Shown: in pieces, positions 55,905-64,000 of the stretch
How positions within the stretch are numbered: position 1 is the stretch's first letter
Layout of the letters: each line of letters begins with the position of its first letter
Assembly (NCBI RefSeq): GCF_027947595.1
Contig: NZ_CP116257.1
Coordinates: 992,001-1,056,000, forward strand
DNA length: 64,000 nucleotides
Direction: 5' to 3'
Source of the DNA: Streptomyces lienomycini
GTDB lineage: Bacteria > Actinomycetota > Actinomycetes > Streptomycetales > Streptomycetaceae
Notes under the pieces: generated by a model
Databases searched by the model: none
What the model saw: only the letters and a program-made list of their open reading frames with translations
What the model was told of the DNA's origin: nothing
Program-made: the position numbers and the translations under genes

Positions 55905-56137
55905 GTCCGTGAGCTTACGACCCGGTTACGACCCATGGGTCGTGTTCTCCACCACGTGAGACGCGTGCCTCCGGGGGTCCCCGCGGTCTCCGTCCGGGCC
56001 CGGTGGGCGGGATCGCGCCAACTGGCGGCCGGTTACCGGCCCTTGTCCGCACCCCTCTCCGTCATGAGAATGCCCATGACAAAACGGCGCCGTCCGGACG
56101 ACCTCCGGCCGGTGCCCTCCATAGAGGGGACCCCCAC

Positions 56138-56968
56138 ATGAACAAGCCTCTCCTTGCCGCGCTCGCGACCCTGGCCGTCACCGGGGTCGGCGTGGCACCG
56201 GCGGCCGCGTCACCCGCGGCTCCCGCCGCCGCCCGTGCCGTGTCCTTCGCCGGCACCGTCGCGCTCAGCAACTGCTCCGGCTCGGTCGTCCGCCTGCCCG
56301 CCTCCGAGGACGACGACCCGGCGCTGGTCATGTCCAACGGCCACTGTCTGGAGACGGGCTTCCCGGCGGCCGGCGAGGTCGTCGTGAACCAGCCCTCCAG
56401 CCGCACCTTCGGGCTGCTCAACGCTTCAGGCACCCGCGTCGCCACCCTGCGGGCCTCCAGGATCGCCTACGCGACGATGACCGACACGGACGTCTCGCTC
56501 TACCAGCTCACCAGCACGTACGCCCAGATCCGCGGCTCCTGGGGGATCAACGCGCTCACCCTCGACGACACCCGCCCCGCGGCCGGCACCGCGATCACCG
56601 TCGTCTCCGGCTACTGGAAGCGCACCTACGCCTGCAACGTCGACGGGTTCGCCTACCGCCTGAAGGAGGGGGAGTGGACCTGGAAGGACTCGGTCCGCTA
56701 CACCTCCGCCTGCCGGACCATCGGCGGCACCTCCGGGTCGCCCGTCGTCGACAACGCCACCGGCGAGGTCGTCGCCGTCAACAACACGGGCAACGAGGAC
56801 GGCGGACGCTGCACGGACAACAACCCCTGCGAGGTCTCCGAGAACGGCACCGTGACGGTCCGCGAGGGCATCAACTACGCCCAGCAGACCTACGGCATCC
56901 CCGGCTGCTTCGGCCCCGACAACAAGCTCGACCTCTCGCGCGGCGGCTGCGCCCTGCCCAAGCCGTAG
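56138..56968 (+). CDS. Secreted chymotrypsin-like serine protease
   Basis: 276 residues with a signal peptide (MNKPLLAALATLAVTGVGVA, cleavage after AAA/ASPA near 25-30). A trypsin-fold domain follows with His69 (SNGHCL), Asp in MTDTDVSLYQL and Ser201 in GGTSGSPVVDN. Several Cys (SNCSGS, YACNV, SACRT, RCTDNNPC, GCF/GCA) suggest disulphides, as expected outside the cell. Probably an exported endopeptidase used in nutrient scavenging or processing. No obvious long pro-region. An ATG with a weak ribosome binding site (AGAGGGGA) starts it. Confidence 0.9.
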   Translation: MNKPLLAALATLAVTGVGVAPAAASPAAPAAARAVSFAGTVALSNCSGSVVRLPASEDDDPALVMSNGHCLETGFPAAGEVVVNQPSSRTFGLLNASGTRVATLRASRIAYATMTDTDVSLYQLTSTYAQIRGSWGINALTLDDTRPAAGTAITVVSGYWKRTYACNVDGFAYRLKEGEWTWKDSVRYTSACRTIGGTSGSPVVDNATGEVVAVNNTGNEDGGRCTDNNPCEVSENGTVTVREGINYAQQTYGIPGCFGPDNKLDLSRGGCALPKP

Positions 56969-57035
56969 CGCCGGAGCGGCGGGCCGGCCCGGCGGGCGGT
57001 GCCGGACCGGCCACGGGCCCGGCCCGGCCCCGGGC

Positions 57036-58646
57036 TCAGCGCGGGACCCGGCGCACCGAGCGCCCCGCCAGCACGTCCGTGCGCCGCCCGTCCTCCATCA
57101 CGAACCGCCCGTCGACCAGCACGTACGGGACGCCCGTCGGCAGGACGCGCGGGTCCTCGAAGGTGCTGCCCGCCGCGACCGTCGCCGGGTCGAAGAGGAC
57201 CAGGTCGGCCCGGTACCCCTCGCGGACCAGGCCCCGGTCGGGCAGCCGCAGCCGGGCCGCCGGGCGCGAGGTGAGGTGGGCGACGCACTCCTCCAGCGGG
57301 AGCACGCCCAGCTCGCGCACGTAGTGCCCGAGGTAGTGCGGGAAGGTGCCGTAGGCGCGCGGGTGGGGCTTGGCTCCCTGGAGGATGCCGTCCGAGCCGC
57401 CGGTGTGGACGCGGTGCCGCATGATCGCGCGCACGTTCTCCTCGTGGCCGACGTGCTGGAGGATGGTCGGCGCCAGCCGGTCGGCCAGCAGGAGGCGGCG
57501 GGCGGTCGTCCACGGGCTCTCGCCGCGCAGCCGCGCCGACTCCAGGACCGTACGGCCGACGTACTCGGCGAGCGCCGGGTCGCCGGTGCCGGAGATCTCG
57601 ATCGTGTCCCACTCCATGGGCACGCCGTGGCAGCCGTCGGAGCCGATCTCCTCGACGTGGTGGCGGATGCGTTCGGCGGTGTCGTCGTCCGCGAGCCGCT
57701 TCATGATCTGCTCCGGGCCGCCCTCGCTCGCCCAGCTCGGCAGCATCGCCACGAGGGTGGTGCAGCCGGGGGTGTACGGGTAGGTGTCGAGCGTGATGTC
57801 GGCGCCGCCGGCCAGCGCCTCGTCGAGCAGCGTCAGCAGCTCGGGCGCCTTGCCCTTGTTCACGCCGAAGTTCATGGTGGCGTGGGCCAGGTGCAGCGGG
57901 CAGTCCGCCTCCCGGGTCAGCTCCACCATCTCCTCGTACGCCTTCAGGGCCCCGGCCCCGTACGAGCGGTGGTGCGGGCAGTAGTAGCCGCCGTACTCGG
58001 CGACCACCCGGCACAGTTCGGTCAGCTCGGCGTCCTTCGCGTACATGCCGGGCGTGTACGTCAGCCCCGACGACATGCCGACCGCGCCCTGCTCCATGCC
58101 CTCGGCGACCAGCCGCCGCATGTGCTCCAGCTCGGTGGGCGTCGCCTCCCGGTCGTCCCAGCCGACGGCGAGGGCGCGCACCGTGCCCTGCGGGATCAGG
58201 TACGCGGCGTTCACGGCGATGCCGCGGTCGAGCCGGTCCAGGTACTCGCCGACCGACCGCCAGTCGAAGTCCACGTCGTCCCCGGGGCCGTTCCACCCCG
58301 CGATCGCGCGGCGCACCTCGCCGAGGGTGCGGTCGTCGACCGGCGCGTACGACAGCCCGTCCTGGCCGATGACCTCCAGGGTGACGCCCTGGGCGGCCTT
58401 GGCGCTGTGGTCGGGGTCCCGCAGCAGCGCCAGGTCGCTGTGGGCGTGCATGTCGATGAAGCCGGGGGAGAGGACCAGGCCCTCGGCGTCCAGCTCGCGA
58501 CGCGCCTTCGGGCGCTGGCAGCCGGCGGCGGCCGCCTCCTTGACGATCGACACGATCCGGCCGCCGTCGACCACCACGTCGGCGCGGTAGGAGTCGGTGC
58601 CGGAACCGTCCACGACGTCGGCGTCCCGGATGACCAGCTCTTCCAT
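57036..58646 (-). CDS. D-aminoacylase-family amidohydrolase (candidate N-acetyl-D-glucosaminate deacetylase)
   Basis: 536 residues, amidohydrolase superfamily. Metal-binding HAHSD (HxH) near residue 67, YYCPHHRSYG, HLAHATMNFG, HVGHEENVRAI and TGGSDGIL (catalytic Asp) are all present, as in N-acyl-D-amino-acid deacylases. It removes the N-acyl group from an N-acyl-D-amino acid. N-acetyl-D-glucosaminate has a D-configured alpha-carbon and so is a chemically valid substrate. The downstream-acting PLP lyase gene lies immediately upstream on the same strand, and the KDG kinase is divergent. The start ATG 58646 has GGGAGCGGGAC upstream. Confidence 0.88.
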   Translation of the reverse strand: MEELVIRDADVVDGSGTDSYRADVVVDGGRIVSIVKEAAAAGCQRPKARRELDAEGLVLSPGFIDMHAHSDLALLRDPDHSAKAAQGVTLEVIGQDGLSYAPVDDRTLGEVRRAIAGWNGPGDDVDFDWRSVGEYLDRLDRGIAVNAAYLIPQGTVRALAVGWDDREATPTELEHMRRLVAEGMEQGAVGMSSGLTYTPGMYAKDAELTELCRVVAEYGGYYCPHHRSYGAGALKAYEEMVELTREADCPLHLAHATMNFGVNKGKAPELLTLLDEALAGGADITLDTYPYTPGCTTLVAMLPSWASEGGPEQIMKRLADDDTAERIRHHVEEIGSDGCHGVPMEWDTIEISGTGDPALAEYVGRTVLESARLRGESPWTTARRLLLADRLAPTILQHVGHEENVRAIMRHRVHTGGSDGILQGAKPHPRAYGTFPHYLGHYVRELGVLPLEECVAHLTSRPAARLRLPDRGLVREGYRADLVLFDPATVAAGSTFEDPRVLPTGVPYVLVDGRFVMEDGRRTDVLAGRSVRRVPR

Positions 58647-58671
58647 GTCCCGCTCCCTTTTCTCGGCTGTC

Positions 58672-59961
58672 TCAGAAGAACGTGCGGATGTAGTCGACGA
58701 CCGTCCCGTCCGCCTCGGCGACCGGGATGAGCTGCCACTTGTCGAAGGACGTGCACGGGTGGGAAAGCCCCAGGCCCACCCAGTCCCCGACCTCCAGCTC
58801 CGCCTCCGGGGCGGTGCGCAGCCAGGCGTGCTGGTCGGACAGGCCGCTCACGGCGATGCCGGTCGCCGGGCGCTCGGGGCCGCCGCCCGCCGGGCGGACC
58901 GCTTGGGCGAAGGGCAGGTCGAGGTCGTACGCCGCGTCGCGCTTGCCCGCGTTGGCGAAGGCCTGCTCGGGGGAGGGGCGGGAGACCACCTGGGTCCACA
59001 GCCGGAACGCGGGCTCCAGGGCGCCCTCGGCGGGGACGCGGTTGAAGGGGGTCACCTCCCGGTAGTGCCCGTCGTCGTGGGAGACGTAGGCACCGGAGCG
59101 CAGCAGCTTCAGCACCGGCAGGGACAGCTCCGGCACCTCGGCGAACACGTCGGCCACCGCGTCGAACCAGGCGCTGCCGCCCGCGCTCAGCACGATCTCC
59201 CCAAGGCCCTCGAACCGCCCGGCCCCGTCGAAGTCGGCCGCCAGCGCGACCAGCCGCCGCAGCCACGCGTGCACGCGCTCCGGGTCGGCGTCCGGCACCT
59301 CGCCCTCGTACCCGGCGACGCCCGCGAGCCGCAGCGTCCGGGTGCGGGCCACCGCGTCGGCGACCGCCGCGCAGTCCGCCTCGGTGCGCGCCCCGGTCCG
59401 CGCCCCCTCACCGGCGCCCAGCTCGACCACGACGTCCACCGGGCGGGCGGCTCCCGCCGCGGTCAGGGCCGCGTCCATCAGCTCGACGCCGCGCACGGAG
59501 TCGACGTAGCAGACGAAGCGGAAGTCCGGGTCGGCGTCAAGTTCGGCGGCGAGCCTGCGCAGGGCGGCGGCGTCGACCAGCTCGTTGGCGAGGAAGATCC
59601 GCCCGATGCCGAAGGCCCGCGCCACCCACACCTGGTGCGGCACGGCGAGGGTGATGCCCCAGGCGCCGTGCTCGATCTGGCGGTGGAAGAGCTGCGGGGC
59701 CATGGAGGTCTTGCCGTGCGGCGCGAAGGCGAGGCCGTGCCGGGCGGCGTACGTCTCCATGAGCCCCAGGTTGTGCTCCAGCCGCTCGGCCGACAGGGCC
59801 AGCACGGGGGTGGCGAAACCGCCGGTGAAGAGGTTGCGGCGCTGGGCGGTCAGCTCGGCGACGGTCAGCCCGGCGGCGTCCGGCGGAAGGCCCTTGAAAC
59901 GGTGGTCGACGCGCTCCTCGGCCAGCTCGGCGAGGGCTTCGGTACCGGAGTCGAGGGCCAT
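58672..59961 (-). CDS. Fold-III PLP lyase (D-serine dehydratase/D-threonine aldolase type; candidate D-glucosaminate dehydratase)
   Basis: About 429 residues. N-terminal alanine-racemase-like barrel with the PLP lysine in FAPHGKTSMAPQLF. The C-terminal beta domain ends WVGLGLSHPCTSFDKWQLIP, with the His/Cys pair that binds zinc in DSD1-type D-serine dehydratases. It should eliminate water and then ammonia from a D-configured beta-hydroxy amino acid, giving a 2-keto acid. D-glucosaminate (to 2-keto-3-deoxygluconate), D-serine and D-threonine are all possible substrates. Transcribed with the amidohydrolase gene (25-bp gap) from the divergent palindromic promoter. Confidence 0.85.
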   Translation of the reverse strand: MALDSGTEALAELAEERVDHRFKGLPPDAAGLTVAELTAQRRNLFTGGFATPVLALSAERLEHNLGLMETYAARHGLAFAPHGKTSMAPQLFHRQIEHGAWGITLAVPHQVWVARAFGIGRIFLANELVDAAALRRLAAELDADPDFRFVCYVDSVRGVELMDAALTAAGAARPVDVVVELGAGEGARTGARTEADCAAVADAVARTRTLRLAGVAGYEGEVPDADPERVHAWLRRLVALAADFDGAGRFEGLGEIVLSAGGSAWFDAVADVFAEVPELSLPVLKLLRSGAYVSHDDGHYREVTPFNRVPAEGALEPAFRLWTQVVSRPSPEQAFANAGKRDAAYDLDLPFAQAVRPAGGGPERPATGIAVSGLSDQHAWLRTAPEAELEVGDWVGLGLSHPCTSFDKWQLIPVAEADGTVVDYIRTFF

Positions 59962-59982
59962 GGAGCCTCCCTGATCTGATGC

Positions 59983-60008
59983 GTTGCAAATCCTGCAACG
60001 ATCGTTGC
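59983..60008. promoter_or_regulatory. Overlapping palindromes, probable IclR operator
   Basis: GTTGCAAATCCTGCAAC (59983-59999; arms GTTGCA/TGCAAC, 5-bp spacer) overlaps GCAACGATCGTTGC (59995-60008; perfect 14-bp palindrome). They share one TGCAAC arm, so three half-sites are evenly arrayed in the only divergent promoter of the cluster. Both arms resemble operators of IclR-family proteins, and an IclR gene is encoded in the plus-strand operon. The whole cluster is thus probably one regulon. Confidence 0.75.
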
Positions 60009-60097
60009 GTATATCGCTTACTGCTGTCTAACATCTCGGCGAACGCGGGGTCAACGGAGCAGCCGCCCGCCAGACGCGACGAGGAGCCCCCACCATC

Positions 60098-61144
60098 GTG
60101 ACCGCCACCGGACGAACCAGCACCGCCCCCGACGTCGCGGACGTCGTCGCGCTCGGCGAGTCCATGGTCACCTTCCTCCCCTCCCGCCCCGGGCGCCTCG
60201 CCGACGTCCCCTCCTTCGAGAGGGCCATCGGCGGCGCCGAGTCCAACGTGGCCTGCGTGCTCGCCGCCGCCGGACACTCCGTGCGCTGGGTCGGCCGGGT
60301 CGGCGCCGACGGCTTCGGCGACCACCTCGTCGAGGCGATCGGCGCCTACGGCGTCGACGTCTCCGCCGTACGCCGCGACCCCGCCCGCCCGACCGGCGTC
60401 TACTTCCGCACCGCGGGCGACCGGGCCACCGACGCCCACGAGGTGGCGTACTACCGGGCGGGCTCGGCCGCGTCCGCGATGTCCGTCGACACCATGGACC
60501 TCGACGCGATCCGCTCCGGCCGCGTCCTGCACCTCTCCGGCATCACGCCCGCGCTCTCCGCCGACTGCCTCGGCCTGATGCGCGAACTGACCGCCCGCCG
60601 CCCCGGCCGCCCCCTCGTCTCCTTCGACGTCAACCACCGCCCCGGCCTGTGGCGCGACGCCGGTCACGGCCACGGCTCCGAGGTGCTCCTCGAACTGGCC
60701 CGCGGCGCCGACCTCGTCTTCGTCGGCGAGGACGAGGCCTGGGGACTGGGCGGCCCCGACGCCGTACGCGCCGCCCTGCCCGAGCCCGACCTGCTCGTCG
60801 TGAAGCAGGGCGCCGGCGGCGCCACCGCCTTCCACGGCTCCGACGTCACCACCGTCCCCGCGCTCACCGTCGACGTCGTCGCCGCCGTCGGCGCGGGCGA
60901 CGCCTTCGCCGCCGGGTTCCTCTCCGCCACCCTGCGCGAGCTGCCCGTCCGCGACCGCCTGCGCCACGGCCACCTCATGGCCGCCGCCGCCCTCACCGTC
61001 CCCGGCGACCTCGCCACGCCCCCGGCCCGCGACCACGCCGACCGCCTCGCCGCCCTCGACGACACCGCGTGGGGGAGACTGCGACTCGGCCCCGGCTGGA
61101 CACAGGACGTCCGAGGGGCCGACGAGGAGGTACGCACACCATGA
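60098..61144 (+). CDS. kdgK: PfkB-family sugar-acid kinase (2-dehydro-3-deoxygluconokinase type)
   Basis: 348 residues, ribokinase fold. N-terminal GESMVTFLPSRPGRL and GGAESNVACVLAAAGHSVRW; substrate segments YYRAGSAASAMS and LHLSGITPALS are characteristic of KDG kinases; DVNHRPGLW; and the catalytic AVGAGDAFAAGF. It should phosphorylate 2-keto-3-deoxygluconate to KDPG for aldol cleavage to pyruvate and glyceraldehyde-3-phosphate. A KDG kinase makes little sense in a pure D-amino-acid cluster and is the main argument for a glucosaminate pathway. GTG start; the stop overlaps iclR (ATGA). Confidence 0.88.
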   Translation: MTATGRTSTAPDVADVVALGESMVTFLPSRPGRLADVPSFERAIGGAESNVACVLAAAGHSVRWVGRVGADGFGDHLVEAIGAYGVDVSAVRRDPARPTGVYFRTAGDRATDAHEVAYYRAGSAASAMSVDTMDLDAIRSGRVLHLSGITPALSADCLGLMRELTARRPGRPLVSFDVNHRPGLWRDAGHGHGSEVLLELARGADLVFVGEDEAWGLGGPDAVRAALPEPDLLVVKQGAGGATAFHGSDVTTVPALTVDVVAAVGAGDAFAAGFLSATLRELPVRDRLRHGHLMAAAALTVPGDLATPPARDHADRLAALDDTAWGRLRLGPGWTQDVRGADEEVRTP

Positions 61145-61905
61145 GCCAGACCGTCGACCGCGCGCTCAGCATCCTGCCGCTGCTCGCCGAGGGCCCCGCC
61201 GACCTGGGCCGGGTCGCCGACCGCCTCGGCGTCCACAAGTCCACGGCCCTGCGTCTGCTGCGCACGCTCCACGACCACGGCTTCGTCTACCGGCAGGCCG
61301 ACCAGCGCTACCGCCTCGGCGCCCGGCTGATCTCCCTCGCCCAGGAGGCGATGGAGAACCTCGACGTCCGCGAGATCGCCCACCCCCACCTCGTACGCCT
61401 CAACGAGCAGGTCGGACACACCGTCCACCTCGCCGTCCACGAGGAGGACGAGGTCCTCTACATCGACAAGGTCGAGAGCCGCTACCCCGTCCGCATGTAC
61501 TCCCGGATCGGCAAGCCCGTCGCCATCACCGTCGCGGCCGTCGCCAAGCTGCTGCTGGCCGACCTCCCCGAGAACGAGCGCCGGACCGTGGCCGAGCAGC
61601 TCGACTACCCCATGTACACGGCCCGTTCGACACCGAACGCCGACGGGTTCCTCAAGGAACTCGTCAAGGTGCGCGAACAGGGCTGGGCCACCGACCTCGG
61701 TGGCCACGAGGAGTCCATCAACTGCGTCGCCGCACCCATCAGGGGCGCGGACGGCCGGGTGGTCGCCGCCATGTCGGTCTCCGCACCGAACGTCGTCGTC
61801 ACCGCCGACGAACTCCTCACCCTGCTCCCGCTGGTGCGCCGTACGGCGGACGCCATCAGCGGCGAGTACTCCGGCAGGACCCCAGCCAAGGAAGTCACCG
61901 CATGA
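61141..61905 (+). CDS. IclR-family transcriptional regulator
   Basis: 254 residues. N-terminal winged helix (RALSILPLLAEGPADLGRVA, HKSTALRLLRTLHDHGFV) and C-terminal GAF-like effector domain (HLAVHEEDEVLYIDKVESRY, ...YSRIGKPVAITVAAVAKLLL, SINCVAAPIRGADGRVVAAM). In this family the C-terminal domain senses a pathway metabolite such as KDG or glucosaminate. Overlaps kdgK and ridA by ATGA. Likely controls both arms of the cluster via the 59983-60008 palindromes. Confidence 0.93.
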   Translation: MSQTVDRALSILPLLAEGPADLGRVADRLGVHKSTALRLLRTLHDHGFVYRQADQRYRLGARLISLAQEAMENLDVREIAHPHLVRLNEQVGHTVHLAVHEEDEVLYIDKVESRYPVRMYSRIGKPVAITVAAVAKLLLADLPENERRTVAEQLDYPMYTARSTPNADGFLKELVKVREQGWATDLGGHEESINCVAAPIRGADGRVVAAMSVSAPNVVVTADELLTLLPLVRRTADAISGEYSGRTPAKEVTA

Positions 61906-62312
61906 CCGACAAGATCGCCCTCGTCCCCGCGACCCACACCGTCCCCCCGGCGAAGTTCAGCCACGGCGTGAAGAAGGGCAACATCCTCCAGGTCGCCGGC
62001 CAGGTCGGCTTCCTGCCCCACGAGGAGGGCAAGGCCCCGACCCCGGCCGGCCCGACCCTGCGCGAGCAGACCCTCCAGACCCTCGCCAACGTCAAGGCGA
62101 TCCTGGAGGAGGGCGGCGCCTCCTGGGACGACGTGATGATGCTCCGCGTCTACCTCACGGACGTCGACCACTTCGCCGAGATGAACCAGATCTACAACGC
62201 CTACTTCGAGGAGCAGGGCCTCACCCAGCCGCCCGCCGCCCGCACGACCGTGTACGTCGGTCTGCCCGCCGGCCTCCTCATCGAGATCGACGCGCTCGCC
62301 GTCCTCGGCTGA
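61902..62312 (+). CDS. ridA: RidA-family enamine/imine deaminase
   Basis: 136 residues, YjgF/YER057c/UK114 fold: VPPAKFSHGVKKGNILQVAG, QVGFLPHEEG, LREQTLQTLANVKAILEEGG, TVYVGLPAGLLIEIDALAVL. Such proteins hydrolyse the reactive enamine/imine made when PLP lyases dehydrate amino acids, releasing ammonia and the keto acid. Placed beside a fold-III PLP dehydratase, it probably completes that enzyme's reaction. The usual RidA arginine is not obvious in my reading, so it may be a paralogous Rid subfamily. Overlaps iclR (ATGA). Confidence 0.88.
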   Translation: MTDKIALVPATHTVPPAKFSHGVKKGNILQVAGQVGFLPHEEGKAPTPAGPTLREQTLQTLANVKAILEEGGASWDDVMMLRVYLTDVDHFAEMNQIYNAYFEEQGLTQPPAARTTVYVGLPAGLLIEIDALAVLG

Positions 62313-62349
62313 CCGTCCCTCCGCCCCGCCTGTCTGACTGTCTGTGATC

Positions 62350-62384
62350 GGCACGGCGTCCCCGCACCCACGGGGCGCCGTGCC
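62350..62384 (+). terminator. Hairpin between ridA and the GntP gene
   Basis: GGCACGGCG-T-CCCCG pairs with CGGGGCGCCGTGCC (one bulged T) around a 6-nt loop. No long T-run; may reduce rather than end read-through into the permease gene, setting its level below the enzymes. Confidence 0.6.
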
Positions 62385-62434
62385 GTGCTCCTCCCTGCCC
62401 GAAAGCTCCATGTACTTATCCAGAGGACCCCCGT

Positions 62435-63916
62435 ATGTCCCACTCGTCCCTCCCTCTTGCCGCCGCCTCCGAGGCCCCACCCCACACCGGCGGTCTGCTC
62501 ACCCTGATCGACGGCACGGCGGGTCTGCTGACCGTCGCCGCGATCGGCATCGCGCTCCTGCTCTTCCTCATCATCAAGGTGCGGCTGCAGCCCTTCGTCG
62601 CGCTGCTCGCCGTCTCCATAGCCGTCGGCCTGCTCGCCGGCCTCTCGGTCACCGAACTCTTCGGCACCGTCCAGAAGTCCGACGCCGTCTCCACCATCGA
62701 GTCCGGCATGGGCGGCATCCTCGGCCACGTCGCCATCATCATCGGCCTGGGCACCATGCTCGGCGCGATCCTCGAAGTCAGCGGCGGCGCACAGGTACTG
62801 GCCTCACGTCTCCTCGGCCTCTTCGGGGAGAAGCGCGCCCCGCTCGCCATGGGCCTCACCGGCCTGATCTTCGGCATCCCGGTCTTCTTCGACGTGGGCA
62901 TCTTCGTCCTCGCGCCCATCGTCTACGCCGCCGCCAAGCGCTCCGGCAAGTCGATCCTGCTCTACTGCCTGCCGCTGCTGGCCGGTCTCTCCATGACCCA
63001 CGCCTTCCTGCCGCCGCACCCCGGCCCGGTGGCCGCCGCCGGGCTGCTGAACGTCAAGCTCGGCTGGATCATCCTCATGGGCATCGTCTGCGGCATCCCC
63101 GCCGTCCTCGCCGCCTGGGTGTTCTCCGCCTGGATCGGCCGCCGCATCTTCGTGCCCGTGCCGCAGGACATGGTCGAGGCGTCCGAGGAGGCCAAGCAGG
63201 CCGTCATCGAGGAGCAGAGCAAGGCGGGCGTCGCGCCGACCGAGACCCCGGTCGCGCTCGGCACCGTCCTCGGCATCATCGGCACCCCGCTGATCCTGAT
63301 CCTCGCCGCGACCTTCTCCTCCATCGCCCTGGACCCGTCCACCCTCCGCTCGGTGATCGAGTTCTTCGGCAACCCGTTCGTCGCCCTGACCATCGCCCTG
63401 CTCCTCGCCTACTACCTCCTCGGCATCCGGCGCGGCTGGTCCCGCAAGTCCCTGGAGACCGTCTCCACGGCCTCGCTGAAGCCGGTCGGCAACATCCTGC
63501 TGGTGGTCGGCGCGGGCGGTGTCTTCGGCGCCGTCCTCAAGGCCAGCGGCGTCGCCCAGGCCCTGTCCGACACCTTCAACGACGTCGGCCTGCCGGTGAT
63601 CGTCCTCGCCTACCTGATCTCCGTGGTGCTGCGGGTCGCGCAGGGCTCGGCGACGGTGGCCATCGTGACGACGGCGGGCATCGTGGCGCCGCTGCTCGCC
63701 GAGGGCGACCACTCGCAGGCGTTCGTCGCCCTGGTCATCATGGCGATCTCGGCGGGCTCCATCTTCGCCTCGCACGTCAACGACGGCGGCTTCTGGATGG
63801 TCGCCAAGTACTTCGGCATCAGCGAGCGGGACACGCTCAAGACGTGGACCGTGCTGGAGAGCGTCCTGTCGGTCGCCGGGTTCGTGGTGGCGGCGGTGGT
63901 GAGCCTGTTCGTGTAG
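62435..63916 (+). CDS. GntP-family sugar-acid/D-serine:proton symporter
   Basis: 493 residues with about 12-14 membrane segments. It has the GntP family motifs LGTMLGAILEVSGGAQVLA, FGIPVFFDVGIFVLAPIVY, THAFLPPHPGPVAAAGLL, GNILLVVGAGGVFGAVLKAS and FASHVNDGGFWMVAKYF. Family members import gluconate and other sugar acids, and DsdX-type members import D-serine. N-acetyl-D-glucosaminate, a gluconate analogue, would fit. Separated from ridA by a 120-bp gap with a hairpin; GAGGA precedes the ATG. Confidence 0.93.
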   Translation: MSHSSLPLAAASEAPPHTGGLLTLIDGTAGLLTVAAIGIALLLFLIIKVRLQPFVALLAVSIAVGLLAGLSVTELFGTVQKSDAVSTIESGMGGILGHVAIIIGLGTMLGAILEVSGGAQVLASRLLGLFGEKRAPLAMGLTGLIFGIPVFFDVGIFVLAPIVYAAAKRSGKSILLYCLPLLAGLSMTHAFLPPHPGPVAAAGLLNVKLGWIILMGIVCGIPAVLAAWVFSAWIGRRIFVPVPQDMVEASEEAKQAVIEEQSKAGVAPTETPVALGTVLGIIGTPLILILAATFSSIALDPSTLRSVIEFFGNPFVALTIALLLAYYLLGIRRGWSRKSLETVSTASLKPVGNILLVVGAGGVFGAVLKASGVAQALSDTFNDVGLPVIVLAYLISVVLRVAQGSATVAIVTTAGIVAPLLAEGDHSQAFVALVIMAISAGSIFASHVNDGGFWMVAKYFGISERDTLKTWTVLESVLSVAGFVVAAVVSLFV

Positions 63917-63955
63917 GCGGCTCGTGTAGGCGTCTGATAACGAAGTCGGGGCTGG

Positions 63956-63970
63956 CTGTGTCCGACACAG
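63956..63970. promoter_or_regulatory. Perfect palindrome before a gene leaving the window
   Basis: CTGTGTCCGACACAG: 7-bp arms around a central C. A CATACT hexamer at 63981-63986 and a GTG at 63993 (reading off the edge) follow, so this may be an operator for a gene beginning at the window end. Nothing more can be said of that gene. Confidence 0.4.
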
Positions 63971-64000
63971 GATCGTCGACCATACTGCCCGCGTGGAGCA

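Follow-up and report, generated by a model that had tools for sequence, protein, structure and literature searches.

A divergent group of six genes in Streptomyces lienomycini very probably forms the core of a regulon for the catabolism of C1-oxidised chitin ends, which would be an actinomycete variant of the ong route of Pseudoalteromonas prydzensis. The genes are located in a stretch of 64,000 nucleotides of NZ_CP116257.1 (the window), which is part of a genome of 7.86 Mb. The assignment is based on the gene families, the conservation of a palindromic operator, the presence of a gene for 2-keto-3-deoxy-6-phosphogluconate (KDPG) aldolase in the operator set, and links through operon structure and gene fusion. 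The first-pass annotation had proposed a streptomycete version of the oxidised-chitin route, which was right in outline; aldolase, lactonase, glycoside hydrolase family 20 (GH20) and ATP-binding cassette (ABC) importer genes share operons or the operator set with the cluster. All six open reading frames (ORFs) are intact and lie where they had been placed before:

57036-58646, minus strand: deacylase, 536 amino acids; PF07969, D-aminoacylase-like
58672-59961, minus strand: fold-III pyridoxal phosphate (PLP) lyase, 429 amino acids; PF14031 and PF01168
59983-60008, plus strand: operator with three half sites, GTTGC-N7-GCAAC-N5-TTGC; predicted IclR target
60005-60034, plus strand: probable promoter of the kinase operon, TTGCGT-N18-TAACAT, as judged from the sequence
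60098-61144, plus strand: PfkB kinase of the 2-keto-3-deoxygluconate (KDG) kinase type, 348 amino acids, GTG start; PF00294
61141-61905, plus strand: IclR-family regulator, 254 amino acids; PF01614 and PF09339
61902-62312, plus strand: RidA-family protein, 136 amino acids; PF01042
62435-63916, plus strand: GntP-family permease, 493 amino acids; PF02447

The ORFs and their Pfam matches bear out the arrangement described earlier, in which deacylase and lyase diverge from kinase, IclR, RidA and GntP around one operator, and the single palindromic promoter element suspected between the two arms was found as GTTGCAAATCCTGCAACGATCGTTGC at 59983-60008. The ATGA overlaps reported for the plus-strand arm exist between kinase and IclR and between IclR and RidA, but RidA and GntP are separated by 122 bp. 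This gap contains a strong GC-rich inverted repeat (ggcacggcgtccccg...cggggcgccgtgcc, 62350-62384), which is possibly an attenuator or a partial terminator ahead of the permease.

From this evidence, we infer every substrate and every enzymatic step, as well as the binding of IclR, the repression and the inducer. N-Acetyl-D-glucosaminate would be taken up by GntP, and the deacylase would remove acetate from it, thereby producing D-glucosaminate. Loss of water and ammonia, catalysed by the PLP lyase, would convert D-glucosaminate to KDG, and RidA may clear the reactive enamine or imine that arises in the lyase step. KDG would then be converted to KDPG by the PfkB kinase, and an aldolase encoded elsewhere in the genome under the same operator would cleave KDPG into pyruvate and glyceraldehyde-3-phosphate. 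IclR bound to the operator is proposed to keep the overlapping promoter blocked as long as neither the sugar acid nor KDG is available. Relatives may use a lactonase to open oxidised ends that are in the lactone form, and their GH20 could free the acid from GlcNAc-GlcNAc1A (GlcNAc, N-acetylglucosamine; GlcNAc1A, its C1-oxidised form).

The third half site of the operator overlaps the probable -35 element of the kinase-operon promoter, and comparable elements can be seen in several relatives. The exact pattern is found in the same intergenic place at all 12 Streptomyces loci compared, the window's included, and at two further loci, one from Arthrobacter (L071) and L056; the Tsukamurella locus L077 differs by one mismatch, and the spacing at L058 is one base shorter. 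The genome of S. lienomycini contains exactly two exact sites, one at the cluster and one at C1:6198367-6198392. The latter is located 31 bp ahead of the presumed ATG start codon of a KDPG aldolase gene (PF01081), 5.1 Mb away from the cluster. A random site would be expected within 100 bp before one of the two aldolase genes of this 7.86-Mb genome with a probability of roughly 1 in 10^5. The earlier statement that no KDPG aldolase is present is therefore correct for the window but not for the genome, in which an aldolase belongs to the predicted regulon under the same operator. The other PF01081 gene adjoins a second KDG-type kinase gene and has no operator, which points to another KDG-producing route in this genome (L089 7578-9241, G000:C1 ~3235577-3237240; the kinase is 45% identical to that of the cluster).

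A survey of 150 Streptomyces genomes revealed 232 exact sites versus 6 for a reversed-pattern control, which shows that the operator pattern is not due to chance. It is present in 135 of these genomes, 77 of which contain two or more sites, and absent from 15. Ninety sites from other Streptomyces were examined, namely the 30 that were listed as loci and, of the remainder, the first 60 in the order of the list: 51 lie at the cluster promoter, 23 are located 4-60 bp before an aldolase gene, whose start was deduced from the tblastn match, and 16 are found elsewhere. Five sites precede a lactonase-like gene (L107, L117, L125, L132, L136) and one precedes a GH20 gene (L113). PF10282 was confirmed for three of the five lactonases, which by eye begin with a twin-arginine-like stretch, while those of L107 and L136 were recognised by sequence reading; PF00728 was confirmed for L113. 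Besides the operator, L113 contains a DasR-like palindrome near the GH20 promoter (~1427), with three mismatches to the DasR site; a DasR-like scan of window positions 56001-64000 gave no match at up to 5 mismatches. At L098 and L164, the exact operator is located between a different IclR-like gene and an aldehyde-dehydrogenase-like gene, perhaps the site of a paralogous regulator with similar specificity. A weight matrix built from 76 sites, each scoring at least 27, reached a best score of 5.6 at the seven LPMO (lytic polysaccharide monooxygenase), two GH20, one lactonase and second aldolase loci of the own genome, and none of the five one-mismatch sites in this genome lies at a recognised pathway gene.

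Conservation of the cluster was assessed in a phylum sample of 396 genomes. The lyase occurs in 28 of them, including this genome and 11 other Streptomyces, and no Streptomyces appears among the listed non-matches, which are ordered from the closest kin onwards. Deacylase, lyase, IclR and RidA are found together at all 11 other Streptomyces loci. At the mycobacterial-looking loci L050-L053 and L055, only the lyase was matched among the six genes. In Tsukamurella tyrosinosolvens, RidA, IclR and kinase genes diverge from an operon of lyase, deacylase, KDPG aldolase and gluconate symporter, and the same gene order with the aldolase in the operon is present in Arthrobacter sp. StoSoilB13 (L071) and at L056. 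A named-genome scan with the deacylase alignment returned 484 relatives, and the neighbourhoods of the best 80 loci were inspected over up to 8 kb; some of these are cut by contig ends, so that the neighbour counts are lower bounds. The lyase is encoded at 78 of the best 80 loci, RidA at 74, IclR at 71, the kinase at 70 and GntP at 51; KDPG aldolase, lactonase and GH20 are present at 23, 9 and 7 loci, respectively, and the exact operator at 49. No LPMO gene was found at any of the 80. In Amycolatopsis regifaucium (L214), the genes for lyase, deacylase, GntP, lactonase, ABC binding protein, permease and GH20 follow each other (confirmed by Pfam, GntP by tblastn), and the locus of Amycolatopsis orientalis (L204) appears to have a similar arrangement. 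At the Actinokineospora locus (L205), lyase, deacylase, lactonase and GH20 genes are present, with an ABC binding protein further along.

Microbacterium sp. M28 (L061) encodes a single ORF in which a deacylase, 54% identical to that of the window, is joined to a GH20 catalytic domain. Lyase and RidA genes, a NagB-family gene (PF01182) and genes for two ROK proteins are located next to it, the latter three of which point to GlcNAc. A protein search with the fusion yielded 227 relatives; all 120 among the matches listed carry both PF00728 and PF07969, although the sample is biased towards fusions because the query itself is one, and the named relatives among the matches listed are almost all from Microbacterium. 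Closer to the cluster itself, a gene for a GH18 chitinase that also contains CBM4_9 and Fn3 domains lies 5.4 kb past GntP, beyond the window (L090 9363-11132, minus strand). According to tblastn, at least five of the 11 other Streptomyces loci (L043, L045, L047, L048, L049) likewise have a close relative of it in the vicinity of the cluster. A plasmid of Arthrobacter sp. zg-Y820 (L080 7995-14033) carries together, according to its annotation, a sugar kinase, a Rid hydrolase, an M20 metallohydrolase, a KDPG-type aldolase and a PLP enzyme gene, possibly as a non-homologous version of the same route. The neighbours of lyase genes on Pantoea and Klebsiella variicola plasmids are amino-acid ABC clusters with no annotated kinase or deacylase.

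The individual proteins are in line with the proposed steps to different degrees. The best NCBIfam match of the kinase is the KDG/KDGal kinase (170.9 bits, below the equivalog cut-off of 400), and its best PDB match is the KDG kinase of T. thermophilus (1v19). An alignment with 1v19 revealed that the motifs GGAE, YYR, DVN-R and GAGDAF, which we take to bind KDG or ATP, are retained. GntP scores above the NCBIfam cut-off for gluconate:H+ symporters and is a predicted sugar-acid importer. The lyase, the sole PF14031 match in the genome (67.7 bits; cut-off 22), belongs to the D-serine dehydratase-like PLP enzymes and is predicted to be a D-glucosaminate dehydratase/deaminase yielding KDG and NH3. 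Its nearest solved relative is 3gwq, labelled D-serine deaminase, and that of the deacylase is the D-aminoacylase 1m7j (AfDam).

The deacylase belongs to the D-aminoacylase fold family (PF07969), matches PpOngB (9kb1) with 191 bits and is predicted to be an N-acetyl-D-glucosaminate deacetylase of a GQDG subfamily. Both metal-binding His residues, the catalytic Asp, Tyr194, Tyr285 and the counterpart of Arg379 of OngB are kept, while Glu226 and Ser291 of OngB align with Tyr and Cys. The column of OngB Gln298 aligns with Arg beside a long insertion, and the structural pairing in the published excerpts differs from the alignment used. The AfDam-type site, consisting of Cys/His/His and Lys252, is not conserved: both His are present, but Asp replaces Cys and Thr replaces Lys. 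Orthology to OngB was considered and rejected, because the active-site residues differ and the proteins fall into separate clades. In the deacylase tree, OngB, AfDam and a Comamonas deacylase form one group (100/100) that is distinct from that of the Streptomyces deacylase, a group of ten with a support of 88/98; the Asp-bearing proteins of L058 and L059 (Microbacterium family) stand apart on a long branch. The protein 9g5m, labelled amidohydrolase, is separated from the OngB-like protein of Klebsiella by a branch of zero length in this tree. In view of its position outside the OngB/AfDam group, a separate origin of the window deacylase is probable, provided that it is indeed a deacetylase of this kind. 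Among the 80 named loci, the nearest deacylase is that of S. tendae (95.9% identity). Asp96 is present in all 80, a number that reflects selection, since Asp96 was part of one search pattern; Thr296, Asp419 and Arg430, none of which was part of the search patterns, are each found in all 80 as well, and Thr257, likewise outside the patterns, in 77.

Several observations weigh against a regulon for oxidised chitin ends. The active site of the deacylase carries Asp96 at the position of the metal-binding Cys of AfDam and OngB (OngB Cys97), Thr instead of OngB Lys254, and Thr, as in D-aminoacylases, instead of OngB Ser292; with these counterparts missing and the protein outside the AfDam/OngB clade, OngB is no guide to its substrate. 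The Streptomyces lyase does not belong to the clade of OngC, which is placed elsewhere in a tree of 29 lyases, and groups with moderate support (86/90) with the lone lyases of mycobacterial-looking genomes, while the remaining pathway lyases of actinobacteria are united in a separate clade (100/99). In the same tree, 3gwq and an OngC-like protein, that of Cupriavidus metallidurans, cluster together (100/99). Of the 150 Streptomyces genomes, about half contain fewer than two exact sites, so that the aldolase link by the exact pattern is not universal. Eight of the 90 sites examined have no clear pathway link, two at contig ends were unreadable (L104, L151), and the lactonase gene and the two GH20 genes of the own genome lack the operator. 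The kinase gene is missing at 4 of the 51 cluster sites (L101, L103, L157, L172) and is present at 10 of the 11 other Streptomyces loci (absent in L048), and GntP was found at 8 of the 11 within the stretch fetched. The distribution of LPMOs outside Streptomyces completes this list. The seven LPMO_10 matches in the S. lienomycini genome are in favour of the regulon. LPMO_10 occurs in 16 of the 396 genomes, namely all 12 Streptomyces and four others, and none of these four has the lyase. The carriers G278, G268, G225 and G257 from outside Streptomyces have no LPMO_10. The expected co-occurrence with AA10 LPMOs thus holds for Streptomyces (12 of 12 sampled) but not for cluster-bearing genomes outside the genus; either these bacteria feed on oxidised ends that other organisms produce, or their substrate comes from elsewhere.

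GH20 enzymes also release N-acetylgalactosamine. The cluster could therefore act by the same chemistry on another 2-acylamino-2-deoxy-aldonic acid, such as galactosaminate or mannosaminate, derived from a different glycan, an explanation that also draws on the differences between the deacylase pocket and OngB and on a Klebsiella ong-like cluster annotated with a galactonate-type kinase and aldolase. It is nevertheless rather unlikely: the NagB-family gene and the ROK proteins next to the fusion speak for GlcNAc, the best match of the kinase is a KDG kinase, and chitin is an abundant source, with LPMO genes present in the genome. Quite unlikely, too, is the use of N-acyl-D-amino acids (D-Ser, D-Thr, D-Met), in which the deacylase and a D-serine-type dehydratase would produce keto acids with the kinase as a bystander. 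The best solved relatives 1m7j and 3gwq, the AfDam-type Thr at the site of OngB Ser292, four loci with mycobacterial-looking neighbours at which the lyase is the sole representative of the six genes, and Comamonas, where deacylase, deaminase and RidA are encoded but the annotation of 13 kb lists no kinase, would all suit such a function. However, it leaves unexplained why kinase, aldolase, lactonase and GH20 genes occur at 70, 23, 9 and 7 of the 80 loci, as well as the aldolase under the same operator and the GH20 fusion. A plain gluconate or KDG salvage operon, for which GntP and KDG kinase by themselves would be suitable, is highly improbable, as deacylase and lyase, which would have to be unrelated neighbours, rank with the best-conserved genes of the cluster (all 11 other Streptomyces; lyase at 78 of 80 loci) and no gluconate dehydratase is found among the six genes.

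Catabolism of C1-oxidised chitin ends is thus the preferred function of the cluster. Beyond this, we consider it likely that a second amidohydrolase subfamily, with Asp in place of the metal-binding Cys, was recruited independently in actinomycetes as N-acetyl-D-glucosaminate deacetylase and placed in a complete IclR regulon leading from the lactone or oxidised chitobiose to pyruvate, and that Microbacterium, whose one sampled carrier lacks LPMO_10, has bifunctional GH20-deacetylases and may live off the oxidised ends of others. Streptomycetes are classic chitin degraders of the soil and were early sources of LPMOs. A literature search in one open-access library revealed no account of the fate of oxidised chitin ends in Actinomycetota; excerpts of an Arthrobacter and an Aeromonas chitin paper contain no actinomycete route, and a search for the Streptomyces D-aminoacylase Sco4986 gave nothing useful. 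The compact, conserved regulon and its predicted operator make this gap testable, predict a new subfamily of carbohydrate deacetylases and a bifunctional GH20-deacetylase, and offer possible functions for genes that carry the annotation D-aminoacylase, alanine racemase or sugar kinase, for example in Tsukamurella.

The best-characterized counterpart is the ong cluster. According to the excerpts of Jiang et al. 2022 (PMC9537276), the activities of OngB, OngC and KdgK of P. prydzensis on N-acetyl-D-glucosaminate and its products were proven, the RidA gene is essential, and the complete route is described only from Gammaproteobacteria and one betaproteobacterium. In these excerpts, the ong cluster resembles the one described here in having a deacetylase of the D-aminoacylase fold, a fold-III PLP deaminase, RidA and a KDG kinase, and in its use of a KDPG aldolase as the subsequent enzyme. 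The identity to ong-type proteins of Pseudoalteromonas and Klebsiella is 27-32% for the deacylase and 31-35% for the lyase, and the kinase is 25% identical to the Pseudoalteromonas KDG kinase. Cupriavidus metallidurans has relatives of OngB, OngC, OngD, OngR, the kinase and the aldolase (tblastn, unannotated record), and the GntP encoded in this cluster is 37% identical to that of the window, which ties GntP to the pathway. On a Klebsiella pneumoniae plasmid (L079 2805-9209), an annotated 2-dehydro-3-deoxygalactonokinase and its aldolase replace KDG kinase and KDPG aldolase in an ong-like cluster. A predicted D-glucosaminate route of Natrarchaeobius also proceeds via KDPG and, in the excerpts of PMC12343721, includes IclR-family and RutC-family genes. 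In contrast to the nearest solved relatives, AfDam and the D-serine dehydratase-type enzymes, the genes discussed here have sugar kinase, aldolase, lactonase and GH20 as partners in the cluster or in relatives.

The differences from ong, as far as the excerpts of PMC9537276 describe it, concern both gene content and control. The ong cluster has its KDPG aldolase gene downstream, whereas the aldolase gene of Streptomyces is unlinked under the same operator and that of relatives is located in the operon; GH20, which would be expected in an ong-type cluster, is present in actinomycete relatives but absent from the window cluster. The regulator is of the MurR/RpiR type in ong and IclR here, and the transporter is an SSS symporter in ong and GntP, or an ABC system in relatives, here. 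Furthermore, no TonB receptor gene is found among the six genes, a lactonase joins the cluster in actinomycete relatives, and the phylum is Actinomycetota. With the OngB described in the excerpts of Wang et al. 2025 (PMC12017989), the window deacylase shares the amidohydrolase family, the catalytic Asp and the Arg379 counterpart, but Cys97, Lys254 and Ser292 correspond to Asp, Thr and Thr. The comparison with verified chitin-oxidation genes therefore supports the enzyme classes and the chemistry of the ong route, but not an OngB-like active site. A route that has so far been described almost only in marine bacteria would thus operate in a soil actinomycete with an apparently different first enzyme and a different control.

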